A stretch of DNA of 64,000 bases from Nakamurella panacisegetis (lineage in GTDB: Bacteria; Actinomycetota; Actinomycetes; Mycobacteriales; Nakamurellaceae), in assembly GCF_900104535.1 (NCBI RefSeq), contig NZ_LT629710.1, forward strand, positions 4,065,501-4,129,500. Direction: 5' to 3'. Below, piece by piece: positions 13,166 through 29,364 of the stretch (the first letter of the stretch is position 1; each line of letters begins with the position of its first letter). The notes below the pieces were generated by a model. It made no database searches. It was not told the origin of the DNA and was given only the letters and a program-made list of their open reading frames with translations. The position numbers were made by a program, and so were the translations under genes.

Positions 13166-13192
13166 ATGACTGCACAGGACGCGAACGCATGA
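13166..13192 (+). CDS. 8-codon leaderless leader peptide (MTAQDANA) overlapping dop start
   Basis: ATG 13166 opens an 8-residue frame, MTAQDANA, whose TGA (13190-13192) overlaps the dop ATG (13189) as ATGA. No Shine-Dalgarno is evident for dop, while a TANNNT element sits exactly seven bases before this ATG. The arrangement suggests that ribosomes load on the 5' end of the mRNA and reinitiate at dop. The peptide is too short to assign a function. Confidence 0.45.
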
Positions 13193-14700
13193 CCGTACGC
13201 CGCATCATGGGCACCGAGGTCGAGTACGGCATCTCCGTCCCGGGGGAGCCGGGCGTCAACCCGGTCATCTCCTCCACTCAGATCGTGCTGGCCTACGCCG
13301 CCTCGGTGGCCGCGCCCCGGGCCCGGCGGCCGAGGTGGGACTACGAGGTGGAGTCACCGCTGCGCGATGCCCGCGGCTACGACCTGTCCTCGCTGTTCGG
13401 CGGATCCGAACCGGACATCGACGACATCGGCGCGGCCAACGTGATCCTGTCCGACGGGGCCCGGCTCTACGTCGACCACGCCCACCCGGAGTACTCCGGG
13501 CCCGAGGTGACCAACCCGCTCGACGCCGTCCTGTACGACAAGGCGGGGGAGCGCGTGATGGAGCAGGCGGCCATGCTCGCGGCGTCGGTGCCCGGAGCCA
13601 AGGCGGTGCAGCTGTACAAGAACAACACCGACGGCAAGGGCGCGTCCTACGGCACGCACGAGAACTACCTGTGCCGCCGGGACACCCCCTTCCCGTCGAT
13701 CATCGCCGGTCTGCTGCCGTTCTTCGCGTCCCGGCAGGTCTTCGCCGGAGCGGGCCGGGTCGGGATCGGGCCGTCCGGGGCCACGCCGGGGTTCCAGCTG
13801 GCCCAGCGGTCGGACTACATCGAGGTCGAGGTCGGGCTGGAGACGACGCTCAAGCGCGGCCTGATCAACACCCGCGACGAACCCCACGCCGACGCGGACC
13901 GCTGGCGGCGCCTGCACGTGATCATCGGTGACGCCAATCTGGCCGAGACGTCCATCTACCTCAAGGTCGGCACCACCGCCCTGGTGCTGTCGATGATCGA
14001 GGCGGGCTGGCCGATGCCGCTCGAACTCGAACATCCGGTGTCCGCGGTACACCAGATCTCCCACGACCCGACCCTGAAGACGACGGTCAAACTGGCCGAC
14101 GGACGGTCGTTCACCGGCGTCGACATCCAGATGGCGTACCTGGAGGCGGCCCGGGCCTTCGTGGCGCACACCTACGGCGACGACGTCGACGCGGACACCA
14201 AGGACGTCCTGGCCACGTGGGCCGACGTGCTCGACAAGCTCGCGGACGATCCGATGCGGCTGGCCGACACCCTGGACTGGCCGGCCAAGCTCCGCCTGCT
14301 GGAAGGTTTCCGGAGCCGGGACGGGCTGGCCTGGGGGGCATCCCGGCTGGCCCTGGTCGACCTGCAGTACGCCGATGTGCGGCTCGACCGCGGCCTGTAC
14401 AACCGGTTGGCCTCCCGCGGCGCCATGAAGCGGCTGCTCACCGACGAGGCGATCCTGACCGCGATGACGGTTCCGCCCGAGGACACCCGGGCCTACTTCC
14501 GCGGGCGCTGTGTCTCCAAGTACCCGGACCGGCTGGCGGCGGCGTCCTGGGATTCGGTGATCTTCGATGTCGGCCGGGAGTCGCTGGTCCGGATACCGAC
14601 CATGGATCCGACCCGCGGGACCAAGGCGCACGTCGGGGCCCTGCTGGACGCCGCCGCCGACGCCGGTGAGTTGGTCGACGCCCTCACCAAGCGCTCCTGA
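13189..14700 (+). CDS. dop: Deamidase/depupylase of Pup
   Basis: Dop deamidates the C-terminal Gln of Pup to Glu, which readies it for ligation, and also removes Pup from substrates. The 503-aa protein is a carboxylate-amine/glutamine-synthetase-fold enzyme, paralogous to PafA at 29375. The N-terminus [10 protein letters not shown] carries the Mg-ATP-binding Glu of the first beta strand. The stretch around [17 protein letters not shown] is the Dop-loop region that PafA lacks, and YKNNTDGKG and [18 protein letters not shown] are the conserved active-site strands. The ATG at 13189 matches the family N-terminus closely. It stands 152 bp before pup. Pup here ends in Gln, so the deamidase activity is required. 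Confidence 0.97.
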
Positions 14701-14852
14701 GCCGACTGCTCCGGCGCGGGCGTTACCCGGTCGTGTCCGGCAGCGCCGAGGCGCAGTCGGGGTGGCTGGGTAAAGTCGAACACAGCGCCGACGAACGGAC
14801 CGTATCCTCTCGTCTTTCACGCAGTGCGGCGCCCTAGATTTGGGAGATCGAC

Positions 14853-15050
14853 ATGGCACAGGAACAGACCACGCGGCAGGGCGGCGGGGATTCCGACGAC
14901 GACGGCGACGCCGCGAGCGGAGCGGCCGGTCAGGAGCGCCGGGAGAAGCTCGCGGCGGAGACCGACGACATCCTGGACGAGATCGACGGCGTGCTGGAGT
15001 CCAATGCCGAGGACTTCGTCCGTTCGTACGTGCAAAAGGGCGGGCAGTGA
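14853..15050 (+). CDS. pup: Prokaryotic ubiquitin-like protein Pup (Gln-terminal form)
   Basis: Pup is the disordered protein tag that PafA joins to lysines of proteins destined for the proteasome. The 65-aa product has the expected acidic, Gln-rich N-terminal half and the helix-forming Mpa-binding part (ETDDILDEIDGVLESNAEDF). It ends VQKGGQ, so it must be deamidated by Dop before use. The start is ATG 14853, with GGGAG at 14842-14846; a TAGATT at 14835 lies too close to that site to be a simple leaderless promoter, so TAAAGT (14771) or TATCCT (14803) are better promoter candidates. prcB follows after three bases. Confidence 0.97.
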   Translation: MAQEQTTRQGGGDSDDDGDAASGAAGQERREKLAAETDDILDEIDGVLESNAEDFVRSYVQKGGQ

Positions 15051-15053
15051 GCT

Positions 15054-15884
15054 TTGAAGGATTCCAGCTGGCCGATCGCGGCGGTCCCGGCGGCCTATCT
15101 GACCCCAGGCCCTGGCTCGTTCACCGAATTCCTGGCCAAGGCCGAACCACATCTGTTGCCGGGTAACCGTGCGCACCCGGTGGCCGATCAGGTACCCCAC
15201 GGCACCACGATCGTTGCCCTCACCTGCGCCGACGGTGTCGTGCTGGCCGGTGACCGCCGGGCCACCATGGGCAATCTGATCGCCCAGCGGGACATCGAGA
15301 AGGTGTTCGTCGCCGACTCCCACTCGGCGGTCGGAATCGCCGGCACCGCCGGTCTGGCCGTCGAGATGGTCCGGTTGTTCAAACTGGAACTCGAGCACTA
15401 CGAGAAGATCGAGGGCGTCCGGTTGTCGTTGGACGGCAAGGCGAACCGCCTGTCCACGATGATCAGGGGCAACCTCGGGGTGGCCATGCAGGGGCTGGCC
15501 GTCGTGCCGCTGTTCGCCGGCTTCGACATCGACCGGGTGCCGACCTCCGAGGCCGGGCGCATCTTCTCCTACGACATCACCGGTGGCCGGTACGAGGAAT
15601 ACGACTTCTACGCCGTTGGCTCCGGGTCGATGTTCGCCCGGTCAGCCCTGAAGAAGCGGTTCGAGCGCGGTGCCTCGCTCGACGTGGCGGTCAAGGCGGC
15701 CGTCGAGGCGCTGTACGACGCGGCCGACGACGACAGCGCCACCGGCGGCCCGGATCTCACTCGCAAGATCTATCCGATGGTCATCGTCGTGACGGCGGCC
15801 GGAGCTCGTCGTCTCCCCGAGGCCGAGGTCGGGGCCGTGTCCGAGTCGGTGGTCGCCGGCCGGATGATCAACCCCGGCGGCTGA
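15054..15884 (+). CDS. prcB: 20S proteasome beta subunit
   Basis: PrcB forms the two inner rings of the 20S core and carries the peptidase sites. The 276-aa precursor has a 50-residue propeptide, then HG|TTIVAL, where autocleavage exposes Thr51 as the catalytic N-terminal threonine. The mature chain shows [14 protein letters not shown] with the conserved Asp and EKVF with the active-site Lys; the GSGSMFA and [11 protein letters not shown] motifs near the end are typical. The only start in frame that keeps the full propeptide is TTG at 15054, three bases after pup. A GTG that overlaps the pup stop (15047) is in another frame and reads only 39 codons. AAAAGGGCGGG upstream can serve as the ribosome site. 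Confidence 0.95.
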
Positions 15885-15939
15885 GCCGAGTCCGTCCGCC
15901 CCGCTCGCGAACCGATCGACACCCAGGAGTCCCAGCACC

Positions 15940-16830
15940 GTGACGATGCCCGTCTATGCCTCACCCGAACAGTTCATGCGGGACCGGTCCGAATATGCCC
16001 GCAAGGGCATCGGCCGGGGCCGCAGTGTCGTCGTCACCACCTACTCGGCGGGTGTGCTGTTCGTGGCCGAGAACCACTCGCCCACGTTGCACAAGGTCAG
16101 CGAGATCTACGACCGCATCGGTCTGGCCGCGGTCGGCCGTTACAACGAGTTCGAGAACCTGCGGACGGCCGGGATCCGGTTGGCCGACGTGCGCGGCTAC
16201 TCCTACGACCGTCGCGACGTCACCGCGCGCTGGCTGGCCAACGCCTACGCCCAGACGCTGGGCTCGATCTTCTCCGAACACCAGAAGCCCTACGAGGTCG
16301 AACTGTGCGTGGCCGAAGTGGCCCGTTCGGTCGGGGAACCGGTTCCGGCGCCGGGGGAGACCCGTCTGGGCGCCCCCGGGCAGCGAGACCAGCTGTACCG
16401 CATCTCCTTCGACGGCTCGATCATGGAGGAGACCCGGTACGTCGTCATGGGCGGCGTGACCGAGCCGGTCGCGTCGGCCATGGAGAAGTCCTTCCGGGCC
16501 GGGTGGGACCTGCCGACCGCCTTGGCCGCCGCGGTCAGCGCACTCGGCGCGGGCGGTGAGGGGGCCCCACGGAAGCTCGAATCGGGCCAGCTCGAGGTGG
16601 CTGTACTGGATCGCACGGTCCCCGAACGGACCTTTCGTCGTCTGGACCGGGACCTGCTCGACCAGCTGCTGACCCCGCCGTCGGCCGAGCCGGCCGCGAC
16701 ACCCGCCGAACCGACGGAACCGGCGGAATCGGCCGAGCCCGTTGGACCGGCGGAAGCCGCGGACGCGGCCCCGGCCGACACCGCGCCCGAACCCGGACCG
16801 CCGGCCGACGAGCAACAGCCGGACCACTAG
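15940..16830 (+). CDS. prcA: 20S proteasome alpha subunit
   Basis: PrcA makes the outer rings of the 20S core, gates substrate entry and docks the Mpa C-terminus. The 296-aa product opens with the alpha signature [20 protein letters not shown] and RGRSVVV, and contains [23 protein letters not shown], typical of actinobacterial alpha subunits. It lacks a catalytic Thr, as expected. After about residue 245 there is an extension of about 50 residues made mainly of Pro, Ala and Glu ([10 protein letters not shown]-type), probably disordered. The start is GTG 15940, preceded by AGGAG at 15924; an ATG six bases later is possible. prcB ends 55 bp upstream, so the genes are co-transcribed. Confidence 0.96.
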
Positions 16831-16850
16831 CCGGGTATCAGGGACCCGGC
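16830..16850 (+). terminator. Hairpin after prcA
   Basis: GCCGGGT and ACCCGGC pair around a seven-base loop, starting at the last base of the prcA stop codon. The stem is short and no U-tract follows, so termination is uncertain. It marks the border between the proteasome operon and the subtilisin/CHAT block. Confidence 0.35.
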
Positions 16851-16911
16851 GGCTCGGCTCCTGCAGCCACCGGACGACTCTCCGCCCGTGTTCCGCCGAC
16901 CGCAAGGACAG

Positions 16912-18339
16912 ATGGTGACCAGTCCGGGACCCCGCCCCCACGCCGGACGTCGGTCCGCGTTGGACCGCTGGCACGGCAGCATCACCGAGCCCGGAAGCAC
17001 CCCGACCGGAGAATGGCCCCAGGCCGCGACGGCCTACCGAAGCACCGGACTGGTGCTGCACGCACCGGACGACGAAGCGGGCGAACGTATCCGCCGGGCC
17101 GTGACCGAGGTGGCCGCCCGCCGGGACTGGGTGGTGTCGGCCGGACGCTCCGGTGTCTCGCTGGCCCCAGCCGAGTCCTCGGTCGGCCCGATCGATTCCC
17201 GGGAGGTGGTGGCCGAACTTCGTCGTCACGTCGATCCCCAGGTCGCCGCGGGCGTCGGCCTGGATCACCTGATGACGACGGCGGAACAGTTCGGCGGCAA
17301 CCCGTTTGCCATCGGTCACGGTCGGACGGGCCTGGATCGATACGGCGACTCCGGGTACGCCGGGCGCGGGCCGGTCAACTTCGTCGTCCCGACGCCGCGG
17401 CCGGGGAGTCCGGAACGTGCGCCCCGAGTGGTGGTGCTGGACACCGGGCTCGGTGACCACCCGTGGTTCACCGCGTATCCGGCCAAGACGGTGGTCACCA
17501 TGAACGACGGCCGGACGATCGGGCCCGAGATCGACCCGGCGTCCATCAAGGGCATCGACGCCGACGGCACCGGAGCGGTCGCGAATGCACTGCTCGGCAC
17601 CTTGGCCAGTCATTCTGGCCACGGCACGTTCATCGCCGGGCTCATTCGTCAGGCCTGCCCCGAGGCCGACATCGTCGCCCTGGCCGTGATGGGCGCGGAC
17701 GGCATCGTCGCCGAATCGACGCTGACCGATGCCCTGACCCTGCTGGCCGACCGGCAGCGGGAGGAGCCTGGCTGGGCCGACGCGCTGGTGCTGTCCCTCG
17801 GCTACTACGCCGAGACGGCCGATGATCTCGCCTACAACACGGCACTGAAGCGGATCCTGGTCGAGCTGGGCCGGCTGGGCGTCGCGGTGTTCTGTGCCGC
17901 CGGAAACGATGCCACGGACCGACCGTCCTACCCCGCGGCGTTCGCGGTCGACGAGGACTTCGCCGCTCCGGACGTGGTGCCGCTGGTCTCGGTCGCGGCC
18001 TTGAATCCGGACGGATCCGTGGCCCTGTTCTCCAACGACGGGCCATGGGTGACCGCCGAGGCGCTCGGCGTCAATCTCGTCTCGACCGCTCCGGTGACCA
18101 GCGATGGCTCGGCCCGAGCGGGGGTGCACGTTCGCGGGCCCCAGGGGCGTCCGCGCGGCGGCGTGGACCCGGATGCCTTCGGGAACGGATTCGCCTCCTG
18201 GAGTGGCACCTCGTTCGCGGCGCCCGTCCTGGCCGGCCAGTATCTCCGCACCCTGGCCGAGGCCGGATTTCCACCGATCGCCGAGCGTGCGCGGCTGGTC
18301 CCGATCGGCCGGGGTGTCCGGCGGACGCACGTCAGGTAG
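16912..18339 (+). CDS. Cytosolic S8 (subtilisin-like) serine protease, first copy
   Basis: The 475-aa protein carries an intact subtilisin triad: Asp177 in VVVLDTGLGDHPWF, His237 in SHSGHGTFIAG and Ser434 in SGTSFAAPVLAG, with the oxyanion Asn in CAAGNDATDR. About 170 residues before the catalytic domain form an unfamiliar N-terminal region ending in GVGLDHLMTTAEQFGGNPF, which is shared with the second S8 protein. There is no signal peptide or membrane segment, so it should act in the cytoplasm, which is uncommon for subtilases. Start ATG 16912 follows AAGGA; GTG 16915 is an equal alternative and the frame opens at 16888. It begins an operon-like run that includes a sigma factor and two CHAT proteases. 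The substrate is unknown. Confidence 0.88.
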   Translation: MVTSPGPRPHAGRRSALDRWHGSITEPGSTPTGEWPQAATAYRSTGLVLHAPDDEAGERIRRAVTEVAARRDWVVSAGRSGVSLAPAESSVGPIDSREVVAELRRHVDPQVAAGVGLDHLMTTAEQFGGNPFAIGHGRTGLDRYGDSGYAGRGPVNFVVPTPRPGSPERAPRVVVLDTGLGDHPWFTAYPAKTVVTMNDGRTIGPEIDPASIKGIDADGTGAVANALLGTLASHSGHGTFIAGLIRQACPEADIVALAVMGADGIVAESTLTDALTLLADRQREEPGWADALVLSLGYYAETADDLAYNTALKRILVELGRLGVAVFCAAGNDATDRPSYPAAFAVDEDFAAPDVVPLVSVAALNPDGSVALFSNDGPWVTAEALGVNLVSTAPVTSDGSARAGVHVRGPQGRPRGGVDPDAFGNGFASWSGTSFAAPVLAGQYLRTLAEAGFPPIAERARLVPIGRGVRRTHVR

Positions 18340-18355
18340 TTTCTGCCGGAACAGC

Positions 18356-18451
18356 ATGTATCAGACCGGTGACGGTCCGCTCCTAGTCGTCGAATGCCGC
18401 CCGGTGCGGCGTCACCTGCAGCTGCGCAACCGCTACGGAGGCACCTTGTGA
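18356..18451 (+). CDS. 31-codon small ORF between the two S8 proteases
   Basis: ATG 18356 starts 16 bases after the first S8 stop and reads 31 residues (MYQTGDGPLLVVECRP..., ending GGTL). Its TGA (18449-18451) overlaps the GTG of the second S8 gene (18448) as GTGA. A weak GGAA lies four bases before the ATG. The C-terminal half is rich in Arg and His and contains one Cys. It fills the intercistronic gap exactly and could be a small protease partner, a substrate or only a coupling ORF. I recognise no family, and chance occurrence is possible in GC-rich DNA. Confidence 0.4.
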   Translation: MYQTGDGPLLVVECRPVRRHLQLRNRYGGTL

Positions 18452-20055
18452 CCGACCCGGCCGCCACGCCCGGATCGTCCGCCCCGAATGATCCGTTCGC
18501 CCGGTACGAGGCCAGAGTCCTCGATCCGGCCACCGCCGTCCGGCTTCCGGGCGGGGCCGCCCCGACCGTCACGGTCTACCGGGGCGACACCCTGCTGGTC
18601 AACGGCGCCGATCGGGCCACGGTCACGGCTCGCATCGACGCCGTGGCCGCACTGGCCACGGACCTGGGTCTCCGCCGGTCCGGGCCGGATCCGTTCGTCG
18701 AGATCGACCGCGACGGATCATCGGTGGACGTGTCGGCCCACAATCGATTCGCCCGTCTGCTGGGCCTGGCCGAGCAGACCGGAACCCCGCTCGTCGTGCC
18801 CGTCCGGTTCGAATCCTCGGCCGACGGTCCCGCCCCCGCGATCGACGTCTGGCCGCTGCTCCAGGCGGTCAGGGCCGCCGGCGATGCCGAGTTGGTGGGG
18901 TTCGTCGGGCTCGATCACCTGATGTTCGCGGCGGCGTCGATCTCGGGGAACCCGTACACGCGGGGCATGTCCCTGATCGGAGGCGACCCGTACACCAGGG
19001 GGATGGCGGCGATCGGCGGGAATCCGTACACCAGGGGCATGTCGTCCGGTGTCGACCAGTACCTGCAGGGCGGTTCCGGCGGCCACGGCCCGGTGAGCGT
19101 TGTACTGGCGCCGCCGCAGCCGGCACCCGGCTCGTGCCGGCCGCAGGTGGTGGTGATGGACACCGGCGCCGGGGAGCATCCGTGGTTCGACGCCTATCCG
19201 GTGCAACGCCGGTTGACCCTCGACAACGGCGACCCGATCGGGCTGGACGTCGATGACCCGGTGGTCGGCGCCACCGATCCCGAGGGCGCTGGGGCGGTGG
19301 CCGATCCGCTGACCGGGTTGTTGAACACCCACACCGGCCACGGCACCTTCATCGCGGGTCTGCTCCGGCAGAGTTGCCCGGACGCCGAGATCACCGCCGT
19401 GCGGATCATGGGCGGCGACGGGGTGGTCGCCGAGGACGAATTGACCCAAGCGCTGACGGCACTCGGCGTTCGCCTGGCCCAGCACCCCGGGAGTGTCGAC
19501 GCGCTGGTGCTCTCGCTCGGCTACTACGTCGAGACGACCGACGACCTCACGTTCACGGCCGGTCTGAAGGACCTGTTGGTCACCCTGGCCGCTCGCGGGG
19601 TGGTCACCTTCGCCGCCGCCGGCAACGACTGCACCGATCGCCGGTCATACCCCGCCGCGTTCTCCGACCACCCCGAATTCACCCATGACGGAGCCCTGCC
19701 CCTGCTGTCGGTGGCCGCGCTGAACCCCGACCGATCGGTCGCATTGTTCTCCAACGATGGATGCTGGGTGAACGGCGAAGCGCCCGGGGCCAACGTGGTC
19801 AGTACCGCACCGGTGCACCTGGCCGGCGCATGGGCCGCCGACACCGGTCTGATCGGTCCGAACGGGGAGCGTCGTGGAACGATAGACCCGGATCAGTTCA
19901 GCAGTGGGTTCGCGACCTGGAGCGGTACCAGTTTCGCCGCGCCGGTGCTGGCCGGTGAGTTCCTGGCCGGTCTCGTCCGGCACGGGTGCCCGAAGGATGT
20001 GGCCGACCGGCGGAAGCTTGTTCCGGCCCGGTCGGTCGAGCGATCGGAGCAGTGA
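18448..20055 (+). CDS. Cytosolic S8 (subtilisin-like) serine protease, second copy with 12-residue repeats
   Basis: This 535-aa paralogue of the preceding protease keeps the triad Asp238 (VVVMDTGAGEHPWF), His298 (HTGHGTFIAG) and Ser495 (SGTSFAAPVLAG), and the oxyanion Asn in AAAGNDCTDR. The N-terminal region of about 225 residues is longer than in the first copy. After the shared GLDHLM motif it contains three tandem 12-residue units of the form I-G-G-N/D-PYTRGM-x-x (residues 165-200). No signal peptide or membrane helix is seen. The GTG at 18448 is chosen because GGAGG lies five bases upstream and gives V-TDPAATPG; the open frame begins at 18394. The stop overlaps the sigma-factor ATG as TGATG, so the two are translationally coupled. 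Confidence 0.88.
   Translation: MTDPAATPGSSAPNDPFARYEARVLDPATAVRLPGGAAPTVTVYRGDTLLVNGADRATVTARIDAVAALATDLGLRRSGPDPFVEIDRDGSSVDVSAHNRFARLLGLAEQTGTPLVVPVRFESSADGPAPAIDVWPLLQAVRAAGDAELVGFVGLDHLMFAAASISGNPYTRGMSLIGGDPYTRGMAAIGGNPYTRGMSSGVDQYLQGGSGGHGPVSVVLAPPQPAPGSCRPQVVVMDTGAGEHPWFDAYPVQRRLTLDNGDPIGLDVDDPVVGATDPEGAGAVADPLTGLLNTHTGHGTFIAGLLRQSCPDAEITAVRIMGGDGVVAEDELTQALTALGVRLAQHPGSVDALVLSLGYYVETTDDLTFTAGLKDLLVTLAARGVVTFAAAGNDCTDRRSYPAAFSDHPEFTHDGALPLLSVAALNPDRSVALFSNDGCWVNGEAPGANVVSTAPVHLAGAWAADTGLIGPNGERRGTIDPDQFSSGFATWSGTSFAAPVLAGEFLAGLVRHGCPKDVADRRKLVPARSVERSEQ
18940..19047 (+). repeat. Three in-frame 36-bp repeats (12-residue units) in the second S8 protease
   Basis: The three units read I-S-G-NPYTRGM-S-L, I-G-G-DPYTRGM-A-A and I-G-G-NPYTRGM-S-S. 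They keep an exact 36-base period with only a few base changes, mostly synonymous or conservative. The first S8 protein has one degenerate counterpart (GGNPFAIGHG) at the same place after GLDHLM. Confidence 0.9.
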
Positions 20056-20753
20056 TGACGACCGAAGCGAGTGAGTTGGTGGCGGGTTCGGACAAACCAA
20101 CGGGCGATGCGCGGCTGGACAGCCAGACGGGCGGGGCCGACGCGGTCGCGCCGGCCCCGGTGCCGGCGCAGCGCACCGCCACCAGCAACCCGCGGGATCT
20201 CGGGGATCTGGTGACCCAGGCGGCCCTGGCCTTCCAGGACTACCGCCTCGGTGTTCCCGGTGGCATCGACCGTCTGGTGCGATTGGTCAGTCCGCTGCTC
20301 TGGCACACCGCGCGTCAGTGTGGCCTGTCCACCGCCGAGGCCGAGGACAGTGTCCAGCAGACCTTCCTGGCCCTGGTCCGGCGCGGTGAATCGATCTCCG
20401 ACCCGTTGGCCGTCGTGCGCTGGCTCACCGTGACGCTCCGCCGGCAGGCCTGGCGGGATCGGGCACTGGTCGCTCAGCGCTCGGGGACCGAACCCACCGA
20501 CGAGGATCTGCCCAGCGCCGAATCGGCCGAGCAGTCGGCCGTGCTGTCGGACGAGCAGCGTCGGCTGTGGGCCCACGTGTCGGCCCTGCCGGAACGCTGC
20601 CGACGGCTGTTGGCCGTCATCGCGTTCGCGCCGCGGCCGGACTACGCCGCGATCGCCCACGACATGGGCATGCCCGTTGGATCCATCGGCCCGACCCGCG
20701 GCCGCTGCCTGGACAAGCTCCGCACTCGGTTGCAGGGGGAGGAATGGTCATGA
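20055..20753 (+). CDS. ECF-like sigma-70 family RNA polymerase sigma factor
   Basis: The 232-aa protein has a disordered N-terminus of about 55 residues, then a sigma region 2 (VRLVSPLLWHTARQCGLS, AEAEDSVQQTFLALVRRG, VVRWLTVTLRRQAWRD; about residues 75-140). After an acidic linker comes region 4 (LPERCRRLLAVIAFAPRPDY, AAIAHDMGMPVGSIGPTRGR, about 180-225) with the -35-recognition helix-turn-helix. This is the two-domain layout of ECF sigma factors. The ATG at 20055 overlaps the stop of the second S8 gene and has GGAG six bases upstream. Its own stop overlaps the next gene as ATGA. No zinc anti-sigma gene is adjacent, so the downstream 166-aa protein or the proteases may control it. Confidence 0.85.
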   Translation: MTTEASELVAGSDKPTGDARLDSQTGGADAVAPAPVPAQRTATSNPRDLGDLVTQAALAFQDYRLGVPGGIDRLVRLVSPLLWHTARQCGLSTAEAEDSVQQTFLALVRRGESISDPLAVVRWLTVTLRRQAWRDRALVAQRSGTEPTDEDLPSAESAEQSAVLSDEQRRLWAHVSALPERCRRLLAVIAFAPRPDYAAIAHDMGMPVGSIGPTRGRCLDKLRTRLQGEEWS

Positions 20754-21250
20754 ACGACACCGCACACGGCGATCCGATGGATCAGCGTGACCTGGACATC
20801 CTGGGGGACCTGGTGGACATCTACGACACGCTCGACCCGATGCCGGCCGTGCTCCCGGATCTGATCCTGTTCGGGCTGCAGATCGGCGATCTCGATGCGG
20901 AAGTGGCTCGCCTGGTCGACTCCGAACTCATCCTCGCCGGGGCGGCCGGAACCCGCTCGGTGGAGCACGCCAAACGCGTCACGTTCTCCAGCGAGAACCT
21001 GACCGTCATGATCTCGGTGCAGAGCCAGCCCGGACATGCGTTGCGACTCGACGGATGGGCCGCGCCCGGCGGCGGTCTGCACGCCGAACTCCGCACGGGC
21101 GGGCAGACCCTGACCGCCGAGTGCGACGAGACCGGTCGCTTCGTCTTCGAGTCCGTTCCATCGGGCTCGGTGCAGTTGGTGCTGCACCCGACCGACGCCT
21201 CCGACCCGGCGATCCGGATCCCGGTGGTCACGCCCGCCCTGCACCTGTGA
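20750..21250 (+). CDS. Sigma-coupled protein with C-terminal beta-sandwich-like domain, possible sigma regulator
   Basis: No named family is certain. The 166-aa protein begins with an acidic helical part (LDILGDLVDIYDTLDPMP and LDAEVARLVDSELI), similar in style to the sigma-binding N-termini of small anti-sigma factors. From about residue 85 it turns into beta strands (LRLDGWAAPGGGLHAEL, LTAECDETGRFVFESVP, GSVQLVLHP), the pattern of carboxypeptidase-regulatory-like/transthyretin-like domains. I recall similar proteins beside sigma factors in other actinobacteria, but cannot verify this here. The ATG at 20750 overlaps the sigma stop (ATGA) and has GGGAGG seven bases upstream. No membrane segment is seen. 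A role as sigma inhibitor or protease substrate is inference. Confidence 0.6.
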   Translation: MNDTAHGDPMDQRDLDILGDLVDIYDTLDPMPAVLPDLILFGLQIGDLDAEVARLVDSELILAGAAGTRSVEHAKRVTFSSENLTVMISVQSQPGHALRLDGWAAPGGGLHAELRTGGQTLTAECDETGRFVFESVPSGSVQLVLHPTDASDPAIRIPVVTPALHL

Positions 21251-21260
21251 AACTGGGTGG

Positions 21261-23849
21261 GTGACCGCCCGCTCGATTCAGCGTCGACCGTCCGACCTGG
21301 TGGCGACGGTCGAGACCCTGCTCGGTCGGGCCAGGGCCGAAGGTGACGCCGGGAGGCCGGCGCGCGCGCTCGCCCTCTGCGATCGTGCTCTCGCCGTCCT
21401 GTCGGCCGACCGGAACGGATCGGCCGAGCTGAACCGATCGGCCGACCGGGCCGCCCTCGCCGCCCGGATCCTGATCACGTCGGCGTACCAACACTCCGGT
21501 CTCGGGGATCTGGCCCGGGCCATGTCCGCGCTGGCGCAGGCCGAGTCCACCGACCCGACGCAGCGACCTGCGATCGACGGCACCCGGGCCATGGTGCTGA
21601 TGCGGGCGGGCGAAGACGCGGCGGCACTGGCCGCCTTCGACCAGGCGGTCCCGGGTCTGCGGGAAGCCGATCCCCGGTTGCTGTCCACGGCCCTGCTGAA
21701 CCGCGGGTGGCTGCATATGAACGCGGGTCGGCTGGCCGAAGCAGAGGCCGACACCGCCGAAGCCCGGGCGGCCGCCCACGCGGCCGGCGATGCCTGGGGC
21801 GTCCACATGGCGGCGCACAACCTGGGGTACATCCAGTTCCTCTCGGGCGACCTGCCGGGCGCGCTGGCGTCGATGGACGCGGCCCAGAGGGCGCTCGAGG
21901 ACCCTCCGATCGGGATGCCCGCTCTTGACCGGGCTCGGGTGCTGCTGGCCGCGGGACTGGTCACCGAGGCCGCCGAATTCGGCGACATCGCCGTGCGCGA
22001 CTTCGACCGCAACAAGGCCCTCAGCGAACTGCCGGATGCGTTGATCGTCGCCGCCGAGACCGATCTGCTGCAAGGGGAATGGCAGCGTGCCCAGACCCGG
22101 GCCCGGCAGGCCAGGCGACTGAACGCCAAGCGCGGCAACCCCAATGCCGCCCTGCTGGCCGAGTTGACCGAACTGAAGGCCGCTGCGGCCGCCCGGTCCG
22201 GCCGCCCGAACTCGGCCACCACGGCCAAGGCCGCCGCGCGCCGTGCGGCGCAGTTGGCGACCGCTCTGGCCGACGCCGGGCTGCCGGCCGACGCGGCCGT
22301 CGCGCACCTGCTGTCCGCCCAGGCGCTGCTGGACGCCGGTGATCCGGACGGTGCGTTGGACGCCGCGACGGCAGCCGGTCCGGTCGCCCGGGACGTCCCG
22401 CTCGGCACCCGTCTGCACATCCGGTTGGTCTCCGCGGAGCTCGAGCTGCGACGTCGGCGCCAGCCACAGGGTCTGGAGCACGTTCGCCGGGGACTGGACG
22501 ACCTGGCCGACTTCCAGAGCCGGTTCGGATCACAGGATATGCAGTCCGGCGCGGCCATCCACGGCGCCGCCCTGGCCCGCCTCGGCCTGCGCACCGCGCT
22601 GTCCGGCGGTTCGCCGGCGGCGATCCTGCAATGGCTCGAACGATCGCGGGCCGTCAGCACCCGGCTTCCGGCCGTGCATCCGCCGGCCGATCGTGAACTG
22701 GCCGAGACACTGGGACAACTCCGGCTGGCCACCATCGAGGCCCGGACGGCGGCGGTCGCCGGGCACCGGGACCCCGTCCTGGAGCGGCGGGTGGCCGATC
22801 TTCGCCGTCACGTCCGGACCCGGTCCTGGACGGTCAGCGGATCGGGCACCGCCCAGCGCCCGCTGACGCTGGCCGCCGTACAACGGCTGCTGGCCGCCGA
22901 CCCGTCCGGGCCGACCGTGATCGCCTACCTGCACGGCGTGCAGGAAACCCACGCCCTGGTCATCACCGGTCGCGGGGCCTCCCACCACCGGCTCGGGGAC
23001 TGGCCGCACCTCCATGGCCTGATCCGCCGGGTCGCGGCCGACCTCGACCTCCTGGCGGCGCCGCGCATACCGAAACCGGTTCTCACCGTCGGCCGGCAGT
23101 CGCTGCAGACCGCACTGGCCCACCTGGACGCCGAACTCCTGGACGTGGTCCGGACGGGAATGACCGACGGGCCGGTGATCGTGGCCGCGGTGGGGCCGAT
23201 GGCGACACTGCCGTGGGGCTTGCTGCCTTCCCTGGTCGGACGACCGGTGTCGGTGAGTTCGTCGGTGACGGCGGCCATGGCCGACGTCGGCCGGCCGGGC
23301 CGGGCCCATCTGCGCGGGGTCCTGGCCGTCGCCGGTCCCGACGTGCCCGGTGGCGGCGCCGAGGCGGCGGCCATCGCCGCCATGCATGCCGGTGCCGGTC
23401 TGCTGGTCGGGGCGCACGCGACCGGCGAAGCCGTGCTCGGGCAACTGCCCGACGGTGGGCTGCTGCACGTCGCCGCACACGGCCATCACGAGCCGGACAG
23501 CCCCTTGTTCTCTTCCATCCAACTGGCCGACGGCCCGCTCTACGGGTACGACATCGCTCCCAACCCGACCCGGCCCGACCACGTGGTCCTGTCCAGCTGT
23601 GACGTCGGCCGGAGCGACGACCGACCGGGCGGGGAGCCGCTCGGACTGGCCGCGGCCCTGCTGCGCAGCGGCGTGTCGACCGTGGTGGCCGGGGTCAGCC
23701 GGATCGCCGACGACGTGGCGGCGTCGACCATGATCGTGTATCACGAGCGCCTGCTGGCCGGCGATGGTCCGGCCGTTGCTCTGGCCACGGCGATCGCCAC
23801 CGCGGACGGGGCCCCGGCCCCGATGAACTGCTTCGGTTCCGGCTCCTGA
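21261..23849 (+). CDS. TPR-CHAT caspase-like protease, first copy
   Basis: The 862-aa protein has about ten TPR-type helical pairs in residues 15-450 (for example LLNRGWLHMNAGRLAEAEAD and NLGYIQFLSGDLPGALASM), a helical linker, then a CHAT domain (about residues 545-862). CHAT domains are clan CD cysteine peptidases related to caspases and separase. The catalytic pair is visible: His740 in LLHVAAHGHHEP and Cys780 in LSSCDVGRSD. TPRs usually receive the activating signal or bind the substrate. The start is GTG 21261, ten bases after the preceding stop, so it is probably part of the same operon. There is no signal peptide. The substrate is unknown; the sigma-partner protein and the S8 enzymes are candidates. 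Confidence 0.88.
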   Translation: MTARSIQRRPSDLVATVETLLGRARAEGDAGRPARALALCDRALAVLSADRNGSAELNRSADRAALAARILITSAYQHSGLGDLARAMSALAQAESTDPTQRPAIDGTRAMVLMRAGEDAAALAAFDQAVPGLREADPRLLSTALLNRGWLHMNAGRLAEAEADTAEARAAAHAAGDAWGVHMAAHNLGYIQFLSGDLPGALASMDAAQRALEDPPIGMPALDRARVLLAAGLVTEAAEFGDIAVRDFDRNKALSELPDALIVAAETDLLQGEWQRAQTRARQARRLNAKRGNPNAALLAELTELKAAAAARSGRPNSATTAKAAARRAAQLATALADAGLPADAAVAHLLSAQALLDAGDPDGALDAATAAGPVARDVPLGTRLHIRLVSAELELRRRRQPQGLEHVRRGLDDLADFQSRFGSQDMQSGAAIHGAALARLGLRTALSGGSPAAILQWLERSRAVSTRLPAVHPPADRELAETLGQLRLATIEARTAAVAGHRDPVLERRVADLRRHVRTRSWTVSGSGTAQRPLTLAAVQRLLAADPSGPTVIAYLHGVQETHALVITGRGASHHRLGDWPHLHGLIRRVAADLDLLAAPRIPKPVLTVGRQSLQTALAHLDAELLDVVRTGMTDGPVIVAAVGPMATLPWGLLPSLVGRPVSVSSSVTAAMADVGRPGRAHLRGVLAVAGPDVPGGGAEAAAIAAMHAGAGLLVGAHATGEAVLGQLPDGGLLHVAAHGHHEPDSPLFSSIQLADGPLYGYDIAPNPTRPDHVVLSSCDVGRSDDRPGGEPLGLAAALLRSGVSTVVAGVSRIADDVAASTMIVYHERLLAGDGPAVALATAIATADGAPAPMNCFGSGS

Positions 23850-23976
23850 GCGGGGAACCAATTCGTCCGGCTGGGAGCGTGTTGGCGCGCAGCGCCGTTC
23901 GGCCTGCGTGGAGCCACGTGTCGGATCGCCGGTTGGGCCAGATGGGAGGGCTTGCGTCGTCTGTGACACTGGATGG

Positions 23977-26559
23977 GTGAATCCGGTCGTACCGCGCGGT
24001 TCGCTCCATCGGCATGAGCAGTCGGCGTTCTCCCTGTGGTCGCAGTCCCGGGCGGCCAGTGATGACGGTCAGTGGTCGCTCGGTCTCCGGTTGGCCCAGC
24101 GGGCGCTGCGTCGGCTCGACGAACACGAGGCGCCGGACCCGGTGCTGCGGTCCCGAATCCTGATCGCGTTGGCCTACAACAACTCCGAGCTGGGGCACAC
24201 CGATCGGGCCCGGGAACTGCTCGACGCCGCCGCGACGGCCGACGCCGTACTGCCGGCGGTCCGGGTGGCCCGAGGTCTGATCATGGTCCGCACCGGTCGC
24301 CCGGATGCCGCGTTGGCCGATCTCGACGCGGCGGTGGCCCAGTTGCGTGTGTCCTCCACCCCGGAAGCGCTCGAGGATCTGGCCGGGGCGCTGATCAACC
24401 GCGGGCTGCTCCACATCGTGGCCGGCCGGCTGGCGCAGGCGGCCGCCGACACGGCCGCCGCCGGCGCTATCGCCCGCGAGCTCCATCGCGGCGACATCAC
24501 GTTCATGGCCGACCACAATCTCGGCTTCGTGCGGTACCTGGCCGGCGACCTCCCGGCCGCATTGTCGGCGATGGAGGCGGCGGCCGCCGCGTGGCCGCGG
24601 GCCGCGCAGGACGGGGTGTCGCCGCTGGACCGGGCGCGCGTCCTGGCCGCCGCCGGGCTGATCGAAGCGGCCGGTGAGCACGTCGACCAGGCCCTGGGCT
24701 TCTTCCGGGCCAACCGGGCAACGGCCGACCTGGTGGATGCCTATTCGGTGCGCGCCGAACTGGACCTGCTGGCCGGCGATCCGGACGCGGCCTCGATCGC
24801 CGCCCGGCGGGCCGAGCAGACCGCGCGCCGGCGGGGCAACACCTCGGCCGCCCTGGCCGCCCGCACCCTGCGTCTCCAGGCGGTCCGGGCCAAACGCCGG
24901 CTCGAACGCCGGGAGCAACCGAACCGGGCCGGGTCGCTCCGACGGGCCCGCGCCGACGCTGCTGACGCCGCCCGGCTGGTGGCGGATCTGGACGCGGTCG
25001 GTCTGGTCGAGGAGGCCAAGACGGCGCGGCTATTGGCCGCGGAAGCGCTGTTGGACGCCGGGGAGGTAGCGCAGGCGGCGGCACTGGCCCAGGAGGTCCG
25101 TCGCCGGTCCGGCTCGCGGCTGGCCACCCGGTTGCACGGCCGGTTGCTCGACGGCCAGGTCGAACTGGCGATGGGCGACCGGCGGGCCGGACTGGCCCAC
25201 ATCCGCCGCGGCCTGGACGACCTGTCGCACTTCCAGGCCACCTTCGGCTCCCAGGACCTGCAGGCGGCAGCGGCGGTGCACGGTCGGGAACTGGCCCGTC
25301 TCGGTCTGCGGACCGCGGTCGAGACGGGCTCACCGGCGGCCATCTTCCAATGGCTGGAGCGGGCGCGCGGCGTGAGTTCCCGGCTCCGCGCGGTCCGTCC
25401 GCCGGCCGACCCGGAATTCGCCCGCGAGCTGGGGGAGTTCCGCGCCGGGTACCAGCAAGCCCGGCAAGCGGTGCTGACCGGCCGTCGCGACGCCGCGTTG
25501 GAGGCCAGGGTCCGACAACAGCGACGTCAGGTACAGACCCTGGCCTGGTCGGCGTCCGGCGGCGGGGACGTCCGTCGTCCGCTCACCCTGGCCGCGGTCC
25601 GGCGTCGCCTGGCCGCGGACCCGACGGACCCGACGGTCATCGCCTACATCCGGGGGGACGGGGTGCTGCACGCCCTGGTCATCACCGCACGACGAGCCAC
25701 CTTTCGGCAGCTGGGCCGATTCGACGAGATCGCGCAGCAGACGCTTCGGGTCGGGGCCGACCTGGACCTGCTGGCAATGCCGCGGATACCCCAGCCCGTC
25801 CGCGATGTGGCCGGGCGCTCGCTGACCGGCGGTCTCGGGCGGTTGTCCGGCGCCTTGATCGGACCGATCGAGCAATTGATCGGCGCGGGCCCGGTGCTGA
25901 TCACCGGGCTGGGCGTGCTGACCACGGTGCCGTGGGGGTTGTTGCCCAGCCTGGCCGGCCGGCCGGTGTCGGTGACGGCGTCGGTGACCGGCGCGATGGC
26001 CGGGCGTTCGCTCGGTGAACGTCGGGTGCTGACCGTGGCCGGACCCGAGGTGTCCAATGCGGCGGCGGAAGCCGAGCAGATCGCCGCGCTCTACCCGGAT
26101 GCGTCGTCCTTGGTCGACGACAACGCCACCGGGGCTCGGATGCTCGCGGCCATTCCCGACGGGGGTGTGCTGCACATCGCGGCCCACGGGCACCACGAGG
26201 TGGAGTCTCCGCTGTTCTCGTGGGTGCAGCTGGCCGACGGACCGCTGTACGGCTACGACATCGCGCCGAACCCGTCCCTGCCCGATCACGTGGTGCTCTC
26301 CAGTTGCGATGTCGGACGCAGCGACGACGACCGGCCCGGTGGGGAACCGCTGGGGCTGGCGGCGGCGTTGTTGCGGAGCGGGGTCTCGACGGTGATCGCC
26401 GGGGTGAGCCGGATCGCCGACGACGTGGCCGCGCCGACCATGCTGGCCTACCACCGGCGGTTGATCGCCGGAGACGGCCCGGCGCGGGCCCTGGCCACCG
26501 CGATCGCCGACGTCGACGGCGGGTCCGTCGCTCTTACCTGCTTCGGGGTCGGCGCCTGA
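23977..26559 (+). CDS. TPR-CHAT caspase-like protease, second copy
   Basis: This is an 860-aa tandem paralogue of the preceding gene with the same layout: TPRs (about residues 25-440), linker and CHAT domain (about 545-860). The catalytic pair is His737 in LHIAAHGHHEV and Cys777 in LSSCDVGRSDD. The stretch from PDHVVLSSCDVG through SRIADDVAA is nearly identical in the two copies, while the TPR parts differ more. This suggests separate inputs with similar cleavage chemistry. The GTG at 23977 is chosen because it aligns with the first copy; the frame opens at 23908 and no convincing ribosome site is seen. A 127-bp gap separates it from the first copy, so it may also have its own promoter. Confidence 0.87.
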   Translation: MNPVVPRGSLHRHEQSAFSLWSQSRAASDDGQWSLGLRLAQRALRRLDEHEAPDPVLRSRILIALAYNNSELGHTDRARELLDAAATADAVLPAVRVARGLIMVRTGRPDAALADLDAAVAQLRVSSTPEALEDLAGALINRGLLHIVAGRLAQAAADTAAAGAIARELHRGDITFMADHNLGFVRYLAGDLPAALSAMEAAAAAWPRAAQDGVSPLDRARVLAAAGLIEAAGEHVDQALGFFRANRATADLVDAYSVRAELDLLAGDPDAASIAARRAEQTARRRGNTSAALAARTLRLQAVRAKRRLERREQPNRAGSLRRARADAADAARLVADLDAVGLVEEAKTARLLAAEALLDAGEVAQAAALAQEVRRRSGSRLATRLHGRLLDGQVELAMGDRRAGLAHIRRGLDDLSHFQATFGSQDLQAAAAVHGRELARLGLRTAVETGSPAAIFQWLERARGVSSRLRAVRPPADPEFARELGEFRAGYQQARQAVLTGRRDAALEARVRQQRRQVQTLAWSASGGGDVRRPLTLAAVRRRLAADPTDPTVIAYIRGDGVLHALVITARRATFRQLGRFDEIAQQTLRVGADLDLLAMPRIPQPVRDVAGRSLTGGLGRLSGALIGPIEQLIGAGPVLITGLGVLTTVPWGLLPSLAGRPVSVTASVTGAMAGRSLGERRVLTVAGPEVSNAAAEAEQIAALYPDASSLVDDNATGARMLAAIPDGGVLHIAAHGHHEVESPLFSWVQLADGPLYGYDIAPNPSLPDHVVLSSCDVGRSDDDRPGGEPLGLAAALLRSGVSTVIAGVSRIADDVAAPTMLAYHRRLIAGDGPARALATAIADVDGGSVALTCFGVGA

Positions 26560-26656
26560 GCCGCGGCCCGACCCGACCGTCTCGGCCGCCGTCGCCGGGG
26601 CGTGCACGCGGGCCGGGCCGTCGTTGTCGGAGGCCGGTGCTCCGTGGCCCGCCCGG

Positions 26657-26662
26657 TATTCT
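26657..26662 (+). promoter_or_regulatory. -10 element TATTCT upstream of the CNNM gene pair
   Basis: TATTCT lies 13 bases before a short ORF (26676-26735) that runs into the TTG start of the first CNNM gene. Initiation six or seven bases downstream would give a leader of about seven bases before that ORF. This is a candidate only. Confidence 0.35.
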
Positions 26663-26675
26663 GACCGGCAAGCCC

Positions 26676-26735
26676 ATGGACACTCACATATCGAAGCCCG
26701 GTGACCGCTCTCGTCCGCGGGAGGGTCGGCGTTGA
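26676..26735 (+). CDS. 19-codon upstream ORF overlapping the CNNM TTG start
   Basis: ATG 26676 reads 19 residues (MDTHISKPGDRS..., very basic at the end) and its TGA overlaps the TTG at 26732 as TTGA. The GGGAGGG that would serve the TTG lies inside this ORF. The overlap rule is the same as for the kinase, dop and MFS leaders, but the promoter spacing is not strictly leaderless, so chance is more likely here. Confidence 0.3.
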   Translation: MDTHISKPGDRSRPREGRR

Positions 26736-28168
26736 TCACCCAGATCGTCCTGCTCGCGGTCGGCCTGCTGCTGATCGCCGGAACGGCCATCTACGTGGCC
26801 GCGGAGTTCAGCCTGGTCACGGTCGACCGGGCCACCGTCGCCCAACGGGCCTCGACCGGCGACTCGAAGGCGAAGTCACTGCTCGTCGGTCTCCGGTCCC
26901 TGTCCACCCAGCTCTCCGGCGCCCAGGTCGGGATCACTGTCACCACCCTGGCCCTCGGGTTCGTGATGGAACCGTCGCTGGCCCGCCTGATTGCAGATCC
27001 GTTGCGGGCCATCGGAATCGGGGCTGCGGCGGCGAACTCCATCGGGGTGGTGGCCGCTCTCGTCATCGCCACCGTGCTGTCCATGGTGTTCGGCGAACTG
27101 GTCCCCAAGAACCTGGCCATCGCCGAGCCGTTGGGCACCGCCCGATCCGTCATCACGCCGCTGCGGGTCTCCACGCTGATCTTCCGCCCGCTGATCTGGG
27201 CGCTCAACGGCATCGCCAACGGCGTCCTCCGGATCTTCTCCATCGAACCCCAGGAGGAGCTGCGGTCGGCCCGGTCGCCCGACGAGCTGCAGTCCCTGGT
27301 CCGCCGCTCCGCCGCGCAGGGGACGCTGCCGGGGGAGACGGCCGGCCTGCTGGCCCGATCGATCTCGTTCTCCGGCAAGACTGCGGCGGACGTGCTCACC
27401 CCGCGGCCCCGGGTGCGGTTCGTCAAGGCCACCGATCCGGTGGAGTCGGTGATCGAGGCGGCCGCCGAGACCGGCCACTCGCGGTTCCCGGTGTCGGGGG
27501 AGAACTCGGACGACGTCGTCGGCCTGGTCCACCTCAAACGGGCGGTCGCGGTCGCCCCGGACGATCGCGTCGGGGTGCGAGTGGAACAGGTGATGGTCGA
27601 CGTGCCCGTCGTCCCGGCCACGCTGCCGCTGGACGACCTGCTCGACCTGTTGCGCGAGCAGGGTCTGCAGATGGCCGTGGTGGCCGACGAATACGGCGGG
27701 ACGGCCGGGATCCTGACTCTCGAGGACGTGGTCGAGGAACTGGTCGGCGAGATCACCGACGAGCACGACATGGGCGACCGCCGGGCCATGCGGCAGCACG
27801 ACGGCACCTGGCTGCTCCCGGGCGATCTGCGACCGGACCAGATCGCCGAGATCACCGGGGTGACGCTGCCCGAGTCCAGCGCCTACGAAACGGTGGCCGG
27901 CCTGGTCATCGCCCGGCTGGGCCGGATGCCCGAGAGCGCCGACACCGTGGAGGTGACGGCGACCGTGCTGGCCGATGTCTCGCTGGGCGTGCTGACCGCT
28001 CGCGTGCACGGGTCGGCCGACGACGTCCCGATTCCGGTCAACGCCCTGGACGACCTACCCCGGGTGGTCAAGGTCCGGCTGACCGTCGCGGCCCGGGGCC
28101 GTCGCCGGATCGAATCGGTGGTGCTGTCCGCCGTGGCCCAGGTCGACGACAAGGGCGAACTTCGATGA
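26732..28168 (+). CDS. CNNM/CorC-type membrane protein with CBS pair, first copy
   Basis: The 478-aa protein has an N-terminal CNNM (DUF21) membrane domain (residues 1-195, with VAAEFSLVTVDR near the start and VFGELVPKNLAIAEP), a CBS pair (about 205-345, VLTPRPRVRFVKATDPVES and VVADEYGGTAGILTLEDVVEE) and a C-terminal CorC_HlyC domain (GTWLLPGDLRPDQIAEITG). Such proteins are linked to magnesium/cobalt transport; the older name haemolysin C is misleading. The start TTG 26732 follows GGGAGGG with eight-base spacing and is the only start that gives the full first helix. Its stop overlaps the next gene as ATGA. Confidence 0.88.
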   Translation: MITQIVLLAVGLLLIAGTAIYVAAEFSLVTVDRATVAQRASTGDSKAKSLLVGLRSLSTQLSGAQVGITVTTLALGFVMEPSLARLIADPLRAIGIGAAAANSIGVVAALVIATVLSMVFGELVPKNLAIAEPLGTARSVITPLRVSTLIFRPLIWALNGIANGVLRIFSIEPQEELRSARSPDELQSLVRRSAAQGTLPGETAGLLARSISFSGKTAADVLTPRPRVRFVKATDPVESVIEAAAETGHSRFPVSGENSDDVVGLVHLKRAVAVAPDDRVGVRVEQVMVDVPVVPATLPLDDLLDLLREQGLQMAVVADEYGGTAGILTLEDVVEELVGEITDEHDMGDRRAMRQHDGTWLLPGDLRPDQIAEITGVTLPESSAYETVAGLVIARLGRMPESADTVEVTATVLADVSLGVLTARVHGSADDVPIPVNALDDLPRVVKVRLTVAARGRRRIESVVLSAVAQVDDKGELR

Positions 28169-29364
28169 ACGGGACCTGGGGCCTGATCGCCCTCGTCGTG
28201 TTCCTGTTGGCGCTGAGTGCCTTCTTCGTCGCGGCCGAGTTCTCGCTGATCTCGGCGCGGCGGACCGTCATCGAGCCACGGGCGGTGACCAGCGCTCGCG
28301 CGCGGGCCACCCTCAAGGCGATGGAGAACATCTCGGTGATGATGGCCTGCGCCCAGCTGGGCATCACCGTCTGTGGCGTGCTGCTCGGTGCGCTGGGTGA
28401 ACCGGCCGTGGCCACCCTGCTGGAGCCTGTCTTCCACGCCATGGGGGTGCCCGCCTCGGCGCTGCACCCGGTGGCCCTGGTGGTCGCCCTGCTGTTGGTG
28501 GTGTCCGCGCACGTGGCTCTGGGCGAGATGGTCCCGAAGAACGTCGCGCTGGCCGGACCGGAGAACACCGCCATCCTGCTGGCCCCGCCGTTGCGGGCGA
28601 TCGCCCTGTTCCTCGGCCCGATCGTCCGTGGGCTCAACCACGTGGCCAATGGCGTGGTCCGGATGCTCGGCCGGGAGCCAAGGGACGAGGTCGCCTCGGC
28701 CTTCACCCGGGACGAGGTCGCTGGTCTGGTCGCCGAATCCCGATCCGAAGGTCTGCTGGACCGCCAGGAACACGACCTGATCACCTCGGCCCTCGAGTTC
28801 GACACCGCGAAGGTGGACTCGGTGCTGCTGGCCGACGCCGACGTGGTGTCCGTGCAGACCGGCGTCACAGCGGCCGAGATCGAGCAGGCGTGCGCCCGGA
28901 CCGGGTTCTCCCGATTCCCGGTTCGGGGCGACGACGGGAAGTTCGTCGGCTACGTGCACATCCGCGACGTCATCGACATCCCGCCGGAGCACCGCGACGA
29001 GCCGGTGCCGGCCGGACGCATCCGTCCCCTCCCGGTGGTCGTCACCGGAACCGACCTCCGGCTCGCCCTCGACCGGATGAGACGGCTCGGTGCCCACCTG
29101 GCCCAGGTGGCGGCACCGGTCCCGGTCACCGTGCCGGAGTCGACGGCCGACCCGGTCGCCGTGCTCGATGCCATCGCGGCGACCTCGGCCGGGCCGCCCG
29201 AGCAGCCGTTGCCGGAGGCGCGGCTGGGGTTGGTGACCCTGGAGGACGTGATCGAGGAGCTGATCGGAGAGGTCCGCGACAGCACTCGTCGGCGACCGCA
29301 GACATCCGGCCCGACCGTGCATCCGGCCCAGGACCCTTCCGGGACGCAACGTCCGGGGGCATAG
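28165..29364 (+). CDS. CNNM/CorC-type membrane protein with CBS pair, second copy
   Basis: This 399-aa paralogue of the upstream gene has the CNNM membrane domain ([36 protein letters not shown]) and a CBS pair with [18 protein letters not shown], but stops soon after. It therefore lacks the CorC_HlyC domain, as is usual for the second member of such actinobacterial pairs. The ATG at 28165 overlaps the stop of the first copy, so the two proteins are probably made together and may form a heteromer. The long open frame that extends upstream to 26701 through the first copy is only a shadow. Its TAG stop forms part of the pafA -10 element. Confidence 0.87.

Follow-up and report, generated by a model that had tools for sequence, protein, structure and literature searches.

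An ECF54-type sigma factor module with candidate proteolytic control and a species-variable peptide array in actinobacteria

We analyzed a 64,000-nucleotide stretch of the Nakamurella panacisegetis genome (RefSeq assembly GCF_900104535.1, contig NZ_LT629710.1, positions 4,065,501 to 4,129,500; hereafter the window), in which six plus-strand genes at 16912–26559 run head to tail and encode two S8 subtilisin-like proteases (S8a and S8b), an extracytoplasmic function (ECF) sigma factor (SIG), a partner protein (PART) and two cysteine proteases with tetratricopeptide repeats (TPRs) and a CHAT domain (CHAT1 and CHAT2). The module is real and widespread, being found at 169 distinct homologous loci, and because of its gene context we filed the locus as ECF54-type, an assignment by context and not by sequence. 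We tentatively propose, with the chances of being right or wrong nearly balanced, that this is a cytosolic, protease-controlled sigma module in which proteolysis of PART would free an autoregulated ECF sigma factor. In addition, and unexpectedly, most of the long S8 proteins carry an array of short identical peptides that appears to be under selection and that we regard as the part of the module worth following.

The preliminary description of this block, made from the letters of the window, had listed six genes in one direction with intact catalytic residues and a sigma factor among them, and this was borne out by coordinates, junctions, Pfam and NCBIfam matches and alignments. Pfam detected S8 domains (E 1.2e-13 and 1.1e-11), sigma region 2 (1e-5) and CHAT domains (5e-23 and 9.2e-23), and the NCBIfam sigma70-ECF model TIGR02937 matched SIG at 50.4 bits against a cut-off of 42.9 over residues 95–249, long enough for regions 2 and 4. 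The S8 Asp/His/Ser residues were retained in 97 of 97 aligned S8 proteins, and 96 to 99 of 99 aligned CHAT proteins, depending on the column, kept the His and Cys. S8b overlaps SIG by TGATG and SIG overlaps PART by ATGA, while PART and CHAT1 are separated by 10 bp and CHAT1 and CHAT2 by 127 bp. S8b ends at 20055 and starts either from GTG at 18448, 108 bp after S8a, or from ATG at 18394. A small ORF had been thought to fill this 108-bp gap; a predicted promoter (18358–18384) sits there, and we have no evidence of a small gene, with no search aimed at one. CHAT1 and CHAT2 were the only CHAT matches at E 0.001 in the genome (5.01 Mb, one contig). Two S8 and/or two CHAT genes were also found in three of seven Nakamurella relatives and in one further locus, and the remaining scanned loci had at most one full-length S8 and at most one full-length CHAT each. 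The module proteins look cytosolic, with a highest 19-residue hydropathy of 1.67.

Within the order, 45 of the 150 genomes carried PART, spread over 21 of 55 genera; within the class it was carried by 98 of the 394 genomes, from 49 of 138 genera. Three sets of loci were collected, namely set A (40 regions fetched out of 53 match rows), set B (named loci, the best 80 of 568 relatives) and set C (60 regions from PART matches to E ~1e-12, with rows close to contig ends passed over, together with two records from phage and plasmid collections); PART was the query for sets A and C and SIG for set B, so they are not blind samples. After hidden Markov model (HMM) scans and removal of duplicates by PART sequence, the 169 distinct loci were obtained, with SIG upstream of PART in 166, CHAT on either strand in 144, S8 of any type on either strand in 138 and all four in 131. 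For the 138 loci away from contig ends the corresponding counts were 137 (SIG upstream of PART), 121, 112 and 111, and all 80 named loci of set B had both SIG and PART. The co-occurrence of sigma factor, partner and proteases, which the preliminary description had seen in a single genome, is thus conserved. Named carriers include Nocardioides, Microbacterium, Cellulomonas, Terrabacter, Micromonospora, Phytohabitans and Salsipaludibacter, and the main gene orders were S8-SIG-PART-CHAT and SIG-PART-S8-CHAT. Clustering of the flanks of 57 loci (ORFs of at least 130 aa within 2.5 kb) gave lineage-specific neighbors with at most eight loci per cluster and no universal fifth gene. S8 was the least constant component.

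By gene arrangement, SIG and PART are a coupled gene pair: when start codons were picked by rule, 76 of 112 pairs showed an overlap of the SIG stop with the PART start. SIG is a plain region 2–4 protein with a variable N-terminal tail. PART was modeled with two N-terminal helices, a disordered stretch at residues 62–71 and a beta-sandwich. In the linker, 107 of 113 proteins had an Arg in one alignment column, and in 99 of the 107 the next residue was Gly or Ser; five of the six exceptions, the PART of the window included, had Arg-Ser three residues further on. Since clan CD proteases often cleave after Arg, this residue is the best candidate for a CHAT site, and CHAT is a better candidate than S8 to act on PART because CHAT without S8 is common (CHAT in 33 and S8 in 23 of 38 loci in set A). 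In distance matrices from 83 loci, from which phylogeny was not removed, the PART N-domain correlated with sigma region 4 (0.27) and with the CHAT protease domain (0.21), values reached in 0 of 200 permutations each. From the gene coupling and this weak signal we infer that PART may bind SIG.

A predicted promoter of the form GTATC-N17-CTCCT was found upstream of the first gene in 62 of 169 distinct loci, whereas the best dyad reached 8 when these regions were shuffled once, and the relaxed form TATC-N17 or N18-CTCC was found in 76 of 175 upstream regions. It was found in front of CHAT in 0 of 138 cases, and the relaxed form had no site in two of seven further Nakamurella-type modules (L033 and L034) or in the truncated L035. 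The position of the motif supports its reading as a signature of sigma autoregulation. Seven module-bearing Nakamurella genomes contained 40 sites, against 5 for reversed-pattern controls. The same lipoprotein family lay downstream of the motif in six of the seven (G000, G003, G051, G059, G073 and G080), YceI-like related proteins in three genomes (one Pfam-checked) and a small membrane protein in two. With a profile built from the six lipoproteins (full-length, E <1e-20), the family was found in seven of eight module-bearing and three of nine module-less genomes (Fisher p 0.0498), and its gene was preceded by the motif in six of those seven and in none of those three, the six motif-bearing genes being already known from the motif search. 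The lipoproteins L225, L241, L244, L251, L242 and L250 share the lipobox Cys and two further invariant Cys residues, and the two members scanned against Pfam (L225/L257 and L244) gave no match above cut-off.

In the proposed mechanism, SIG would drive GTATC-N17-CTCCT promoters, its own operon included, and PART would keep it inactive. The TPRs would read a signal and switch CHAT on, and CHAT would then cut PART after the conserved linker Arg, separating its two domains and releasing SIG. The long S8, where present, would form a second, zymogen protease layer; a protease cascade, as the preliminary description had it, is possible.

Several results weigh against this proposal. No recognized anti-sigma fold was found in PART by Pfam, Foldseek or a PDB profile search, and the correlations of the PART pairs were exceeded by those of two less plausible pairs, the S8 catalytic domain and sigma region 2 (0.54) and the S8 catalytic domain and the CHAT TPRs (0.29). 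The motif in its searched form was absent from 99 of 175 upstream regions, and of the 40 Nakamurella sites many lie before an unrelated gene or where no clear gene follows, and not before a shared one. Of 10 genomes from other lineages, five had the strict motif, four of them at the module, and no regulon was seen outside Nakamurella, on which a search across the class (32 of 394) gave no information. In 13 of the 62 loci of one sample, SIG and PART occurred without either protease in the fetched stretch. Finally, a review of this class of sigma factors, in the portion available to us, takes the opposite sign, in which degradation of the sigma factor by proteases holds the system in the inactive state and no anti-sigma factor is involved (PMC8999054). 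Proteolytic shut-off of this kind, with the proteases destroying or restraining SIG directly, PART as the delivering adaptor and the signal inhibiting the proteases, would fit the missing anti-sigma fold of PART as well as the published proposal. It is harder to reconcile with a conserved cut-site-like Arg that sits in the PART linker, with a SIG that is a plain protein with a variable tail and with SIG-PART pairs that occur without nearby proteases, and we consider it rather improbable.

For PART, Foldseek gave no match at E 0.001 or better, and PART is not an enzyme by Pfam, its only similarity being a sub-threshold one to the carboxypeptidase regulatory-like domain CarboxypepD_reg (13.2 bits, cut-off 32.3). 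ZAS anti-sigma factors carry a conserved His/Cys zinc motif; no Cys or His was found among the invariant or near-invariant PART columns. A PART profile compared with PDB chains up to E 1 detected no relation to Csx30, nor did Pfam or PADLOC, at which level a very distant relation is possible.

A switch for defense or stress had been suggested in the preliminary description. In an anti-phage or suicide module, CHAT and subtilisin would be immunity effectors and the sigma factor would amplify expression. Type III-E CRISPR systems do use a CHAT protease, Csx29, which cleaves an inhibitor of a sigma factor (PMC10028731, seen in part), and the turnover of the S8 peptide array resembles that of a recognition surface. 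However, the best PADLOC hit of the six proteins (database of 2023) was a match of CHAT1 to part of the BovA profile at E 0.0084, housekeeping genes neighbor the module in several lineages, and the shared predicted Nakamurella targets (lipoprotein, small membrane protein and YceI-like protein) look like envelope proteins. A single phage-collection record and a single plasmid-collection record also contained PART, and neither is a convincing mobile element. On these grounds a defense role is unsupported and unlikely, and the reading as an immunity system has very little probability in our view. The module had also been called CRISPR-independent, with which the lack of any CRISPR part among the six proteins scanned with PADLOC agrees, for a scan that covered those proteins and not the genome. 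Of the sigma-switch idea, the conserved gene set and the autoregulation-type promoter are supported, and the defense role and the label "undescribed" are not.

The module had been regarded as undescribed, whereas ECF54 has already been described with subtilase, CHAT and carboxypeptidase-domain neighbors, and proteolytic control was proposed for it from this conserved context in the portion of the review seen, which cites Casas-Pastor 2021 and Huang 2015 and lists a model member from Geodermatophilus amargosae (PMC8999054). The locus shares with ECF54, as described there, an ECF sigma factor with regions 2 and 4, subtilase and CHAT neighbors and no known anti-sigma factor. As to a carboxypeptidase-domain neighbor, PART has the sub-threshold CarboxypepD_reg score given above. 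The ECF54 account in that portion of the review mentions no PART linker Arg, S8 array, micropeptide, promoter or proteasome-locus insertion (PMC8999054). We take the promoter, the near-invariant PART Arg-Gly/Ser, the S8 array, the micropeptide and the Nakamurella proteasome insertion as new within the literature searched, of which the primary ECF54 papers, seen through the review, may hold some. Protease control of ECF54 has so far been argued from gene context, to which a predicted promoter, predicted targets in one genus, a candidate cleavage residue and the S8 array are now added as handles. The comparison with the type III-E Craspase made in the preliminary description is a fair analogy of function: there the TPR-CHAT protease Csx29 cuts Csx30, the inhibitor of CASP-sigma, and TPR-CHAT, partner protein and ECF-like sigma factor likewise lie in one locus (PMC10028731, in part), but the module adds an S8 protease. 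Similarly, RseA/DegS is a protease cascade that frees an ECF sigma factor (PMC8103513, in part), whereas the module proteins look cytosolic and no membrane anti-sigma factor was seen. If borne out, the proposal would mean that proteases related to caspases, together with subtilisins, are wired to a sigma factor without CRISPR in widespread soil and environmental actinobacteria.

The model of S8b was confident for a prodomain (about residues 30–182) and for the catalytic domain, with residues 185–228 between them disordered. Over both domains it was best matched by two structures that tie within 1, PCSK9 (6u2f), with Z 26.5 and an rmsd of 3.8 for 309 aligned residues, and pro-subtilisin E (3whi), with Z 25.5 and an rmsd of 3.6 for 301. 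Like pro-subtilisins and PCSK9, S8b combines a prodomain with a subtilisin domain; unlike them, it has no apparent secretion signal and the disordered linker is a tandem array of identical short peptides. Such arrays were detected in 103 of 120 distinct long S8 proteins at a score cut-off of 6, the highest scores being 4 for shuffled proteins and 5 for catalytic parts. The 62-locus sample had 24 long S8 matches, 19 with an array, and 23 short low-scoring ones (HMM 92–188 bits), none with an array. There were 83 distinct units. The period was 6 in 75 of the arrays, and 68 of these 75 contained Pro, typically as [NH]-P-[FY]-x-x-[STG] when the unit is started one residue ahead of Pro.

The unit varies between species and is identical within each. 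Codon pairs within arrays were identical in 1371 cases, synonymous in 845 and nonsynonymous in 28, where random single-base changes at differing codons would be expected to be 30% synonymous; the arrays were selected by amino-acid identity, which biases these counts toward few nonsynonymous differences. Selection seems to keep the repeat units identical within a species. In one genus, probably Microbacterium to judge from matching arrays, 60 of 119 genomes had a match, and the 30 best-scoring of these 60 carriers all had arrays, with 12 units. Two S8 proteins with NPFTRT x3 (L331) and NPFSRT x3 (L329) were 92% identical over the compared catalytic stretch and had common Arg-Thr codons copy by copy (CGC ACG, CGG ACG, CGC ACC), with Thr changed to Ser in all three copies and with different Asn and Pro codons. 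As the Arg-Thr codons were kept copy by copy, the copies in this one example seem to have changed separately and not by copying. A mixed array (NPFTQT, NPFTQS and NPYTKS x3) was seen in L321, possibly an intermediate of unit change.

Rapid yet concerted change of the array calls for a reader. The peptide copies may be the recognition or processing site of a protein with species-drifting specificity, perhaps S8 itself. Distances between units tracked those of the S8 domains (partial correlation 0.15 each, reached by 5 and 12 of 300 permutations; 45 loci), a weak correlation with domains that share a gene with the array. CHAT was rejected as the reader, its partial correlation with unit distance in the 45 loci being -0.07 for the protease domain and 0.04 for the TPRs. 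Between PART and S8, three Nocardioides loci encode a Pro/Lys-rich peptide of 25–31 aa whose C-terminus is the unit of their own array, matching six of six residues in L082 and L113 and five of six in L077, in codons identical to no array copy. Among 34,402 ORF ends, six-residue matches to the own array were found twice and to the array of another locus never; four-residue tail matches (17, against 10 in the control) were discarded as noise. We suggest, with rather more doubt than conviction, that the linker repeat is a species-specific peptide key whose copies change in concert and which is read by a co-evolving pocket, most likely the S8 cleft or prodomain, with a copy supplied in trans by the micropeptide in some Nocardioides. 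If true, an evolving lock and key would gate a cytosolic zymogen that controls transcription.

The micropeptides that end in their own array unit, with no six-residue match to other arrays, could also mean that hexapeptides or the micropeptide are signals or inhibitors, binding the TPR domain or the S8 cleft and coupling protease activity to peptide level. This seems distinctly unlikely to us, given that such genes were found in three Nocardioides loci only and that the sole match of at least five residues in a later sample was low-complexity (L162). The micropeptide sequence also has no hydrophobic export signal, and no second exact copy of the unit was found for PYTRGM in its own genome or for PFMKGG in G017. 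Elsewhere in the window, the array unit had one chance-like antisense match.

Table 1. Module features, flanking genes and predicted sites in the window, and micropeptide genes at three Nocardioides loci (positions within each locus)
Feature	Position	Strand	Basis
Predicted sigma promoter P1, GTATCA-N17-CTCCT, between prcA and S8a	16835..16862	+	
S8a, subtilisin-like protease without peptide-repeat array	16912..18339	+	ORF, Pfam S8
Predicted sigma promoter P2, GTATCA-N16-CTCCT, upstream of S8b	18358..18384	+	
S8b, subtilisin-like: prodomain, disordered repeat linker, catalytic domain	18448..20055	+	ORF, Pfam S8, model
Peptide repeat in S8b, PYTRGM x3 in longer units, synonymous codon differences	18940..19041	+	
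SIG, ECF-type sigma factor	20055..20753	+	ORF, Pfam, NCBIfam
PART, 166-aa partner: N-terminal helices, disordered linker, beta-sandwich	20750..21250	+	ORF, model
Arg69-Ser70 of PART, candidate cleavage site in disordered linker	20954..20959	+	Alignment, model
CHAT1, TPR-CHAT cysteine protease; conserved His736, His740 (AHG motif), Cys780	21261..23849	+	Pfam, alignment
CHAT2, second TPR-CHAT protease	23977..26559	+	Pfam
dop (Pup_ligase family), flank	13189..14700	+	Pfam
65-aa ORF ending GGQ, flank	14853..15050	+	
prcB proteasome subunit, flank	15054..15884	+	Pfam
prcA proteasome subunit, flank	15940..16830	+	Pfam
CBS membrane protein 1, flank	26732..28168	+	
CBS membrane protein 2, flank	28165..29364	+	
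pafA (Pup_ligase family), flank	29375..30733	+	Pfam
Micropeptide gene, L082	10200-10277		
Micropeptide gene, L113	10166-10252		
Micropeptide gene, L077	10135-10230		

The preliminary description had overlooked that the block sits inside the Pup-proteasome locus (13189–31877), with prcA before it and pafA after it. The upstream flank consists of dop, the 65-aa ORF that we take to be pup from its terminal motif, prcB and prcA, and the downstream flank of two CBS membrane proteins, presumably of CNNM type, pafA and a PafC-like gene. The module followed prcA in all seven Nakamurella relatives read, and PART was found in 8 of the 17 same-genus genomes listed. In seven of nine module-less Nakamurella examined, prcA was followed by the CBS pair and pafA (four), directly by pafA (two) or by another interruption (one). 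Judged from these gene orders, the module has been inserted into the proteasome locus of Nakamurella. In the remaining 33 set A loci no proteasome gene lay nearby except for one weak pafC-like match, so the proteasome link is local to Nakamurella.

Some loci departed from the common arrangement. L210–L220 had the short S8 type without an array, and in 9 of these 11 loci CHAT was on the strand opposite to SIG and PART. L126 from Salsipaludibacter albus (class Nitriliruptoria) had two PART genes, two CHAT genes, two S8 stretches and one SIG. S8, SIG, PART and CHAT were found in this order in L161 (MT838002.1), which is filed as an unverified bacteriophage and is probably misfiled bacterial DNA. 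The module was also found in L160 (NZ_LT559118.1, Nonomuraea gerenzanensis), a record filed as a plasmid whose size of 11.85 Mb suggests a chromosome.

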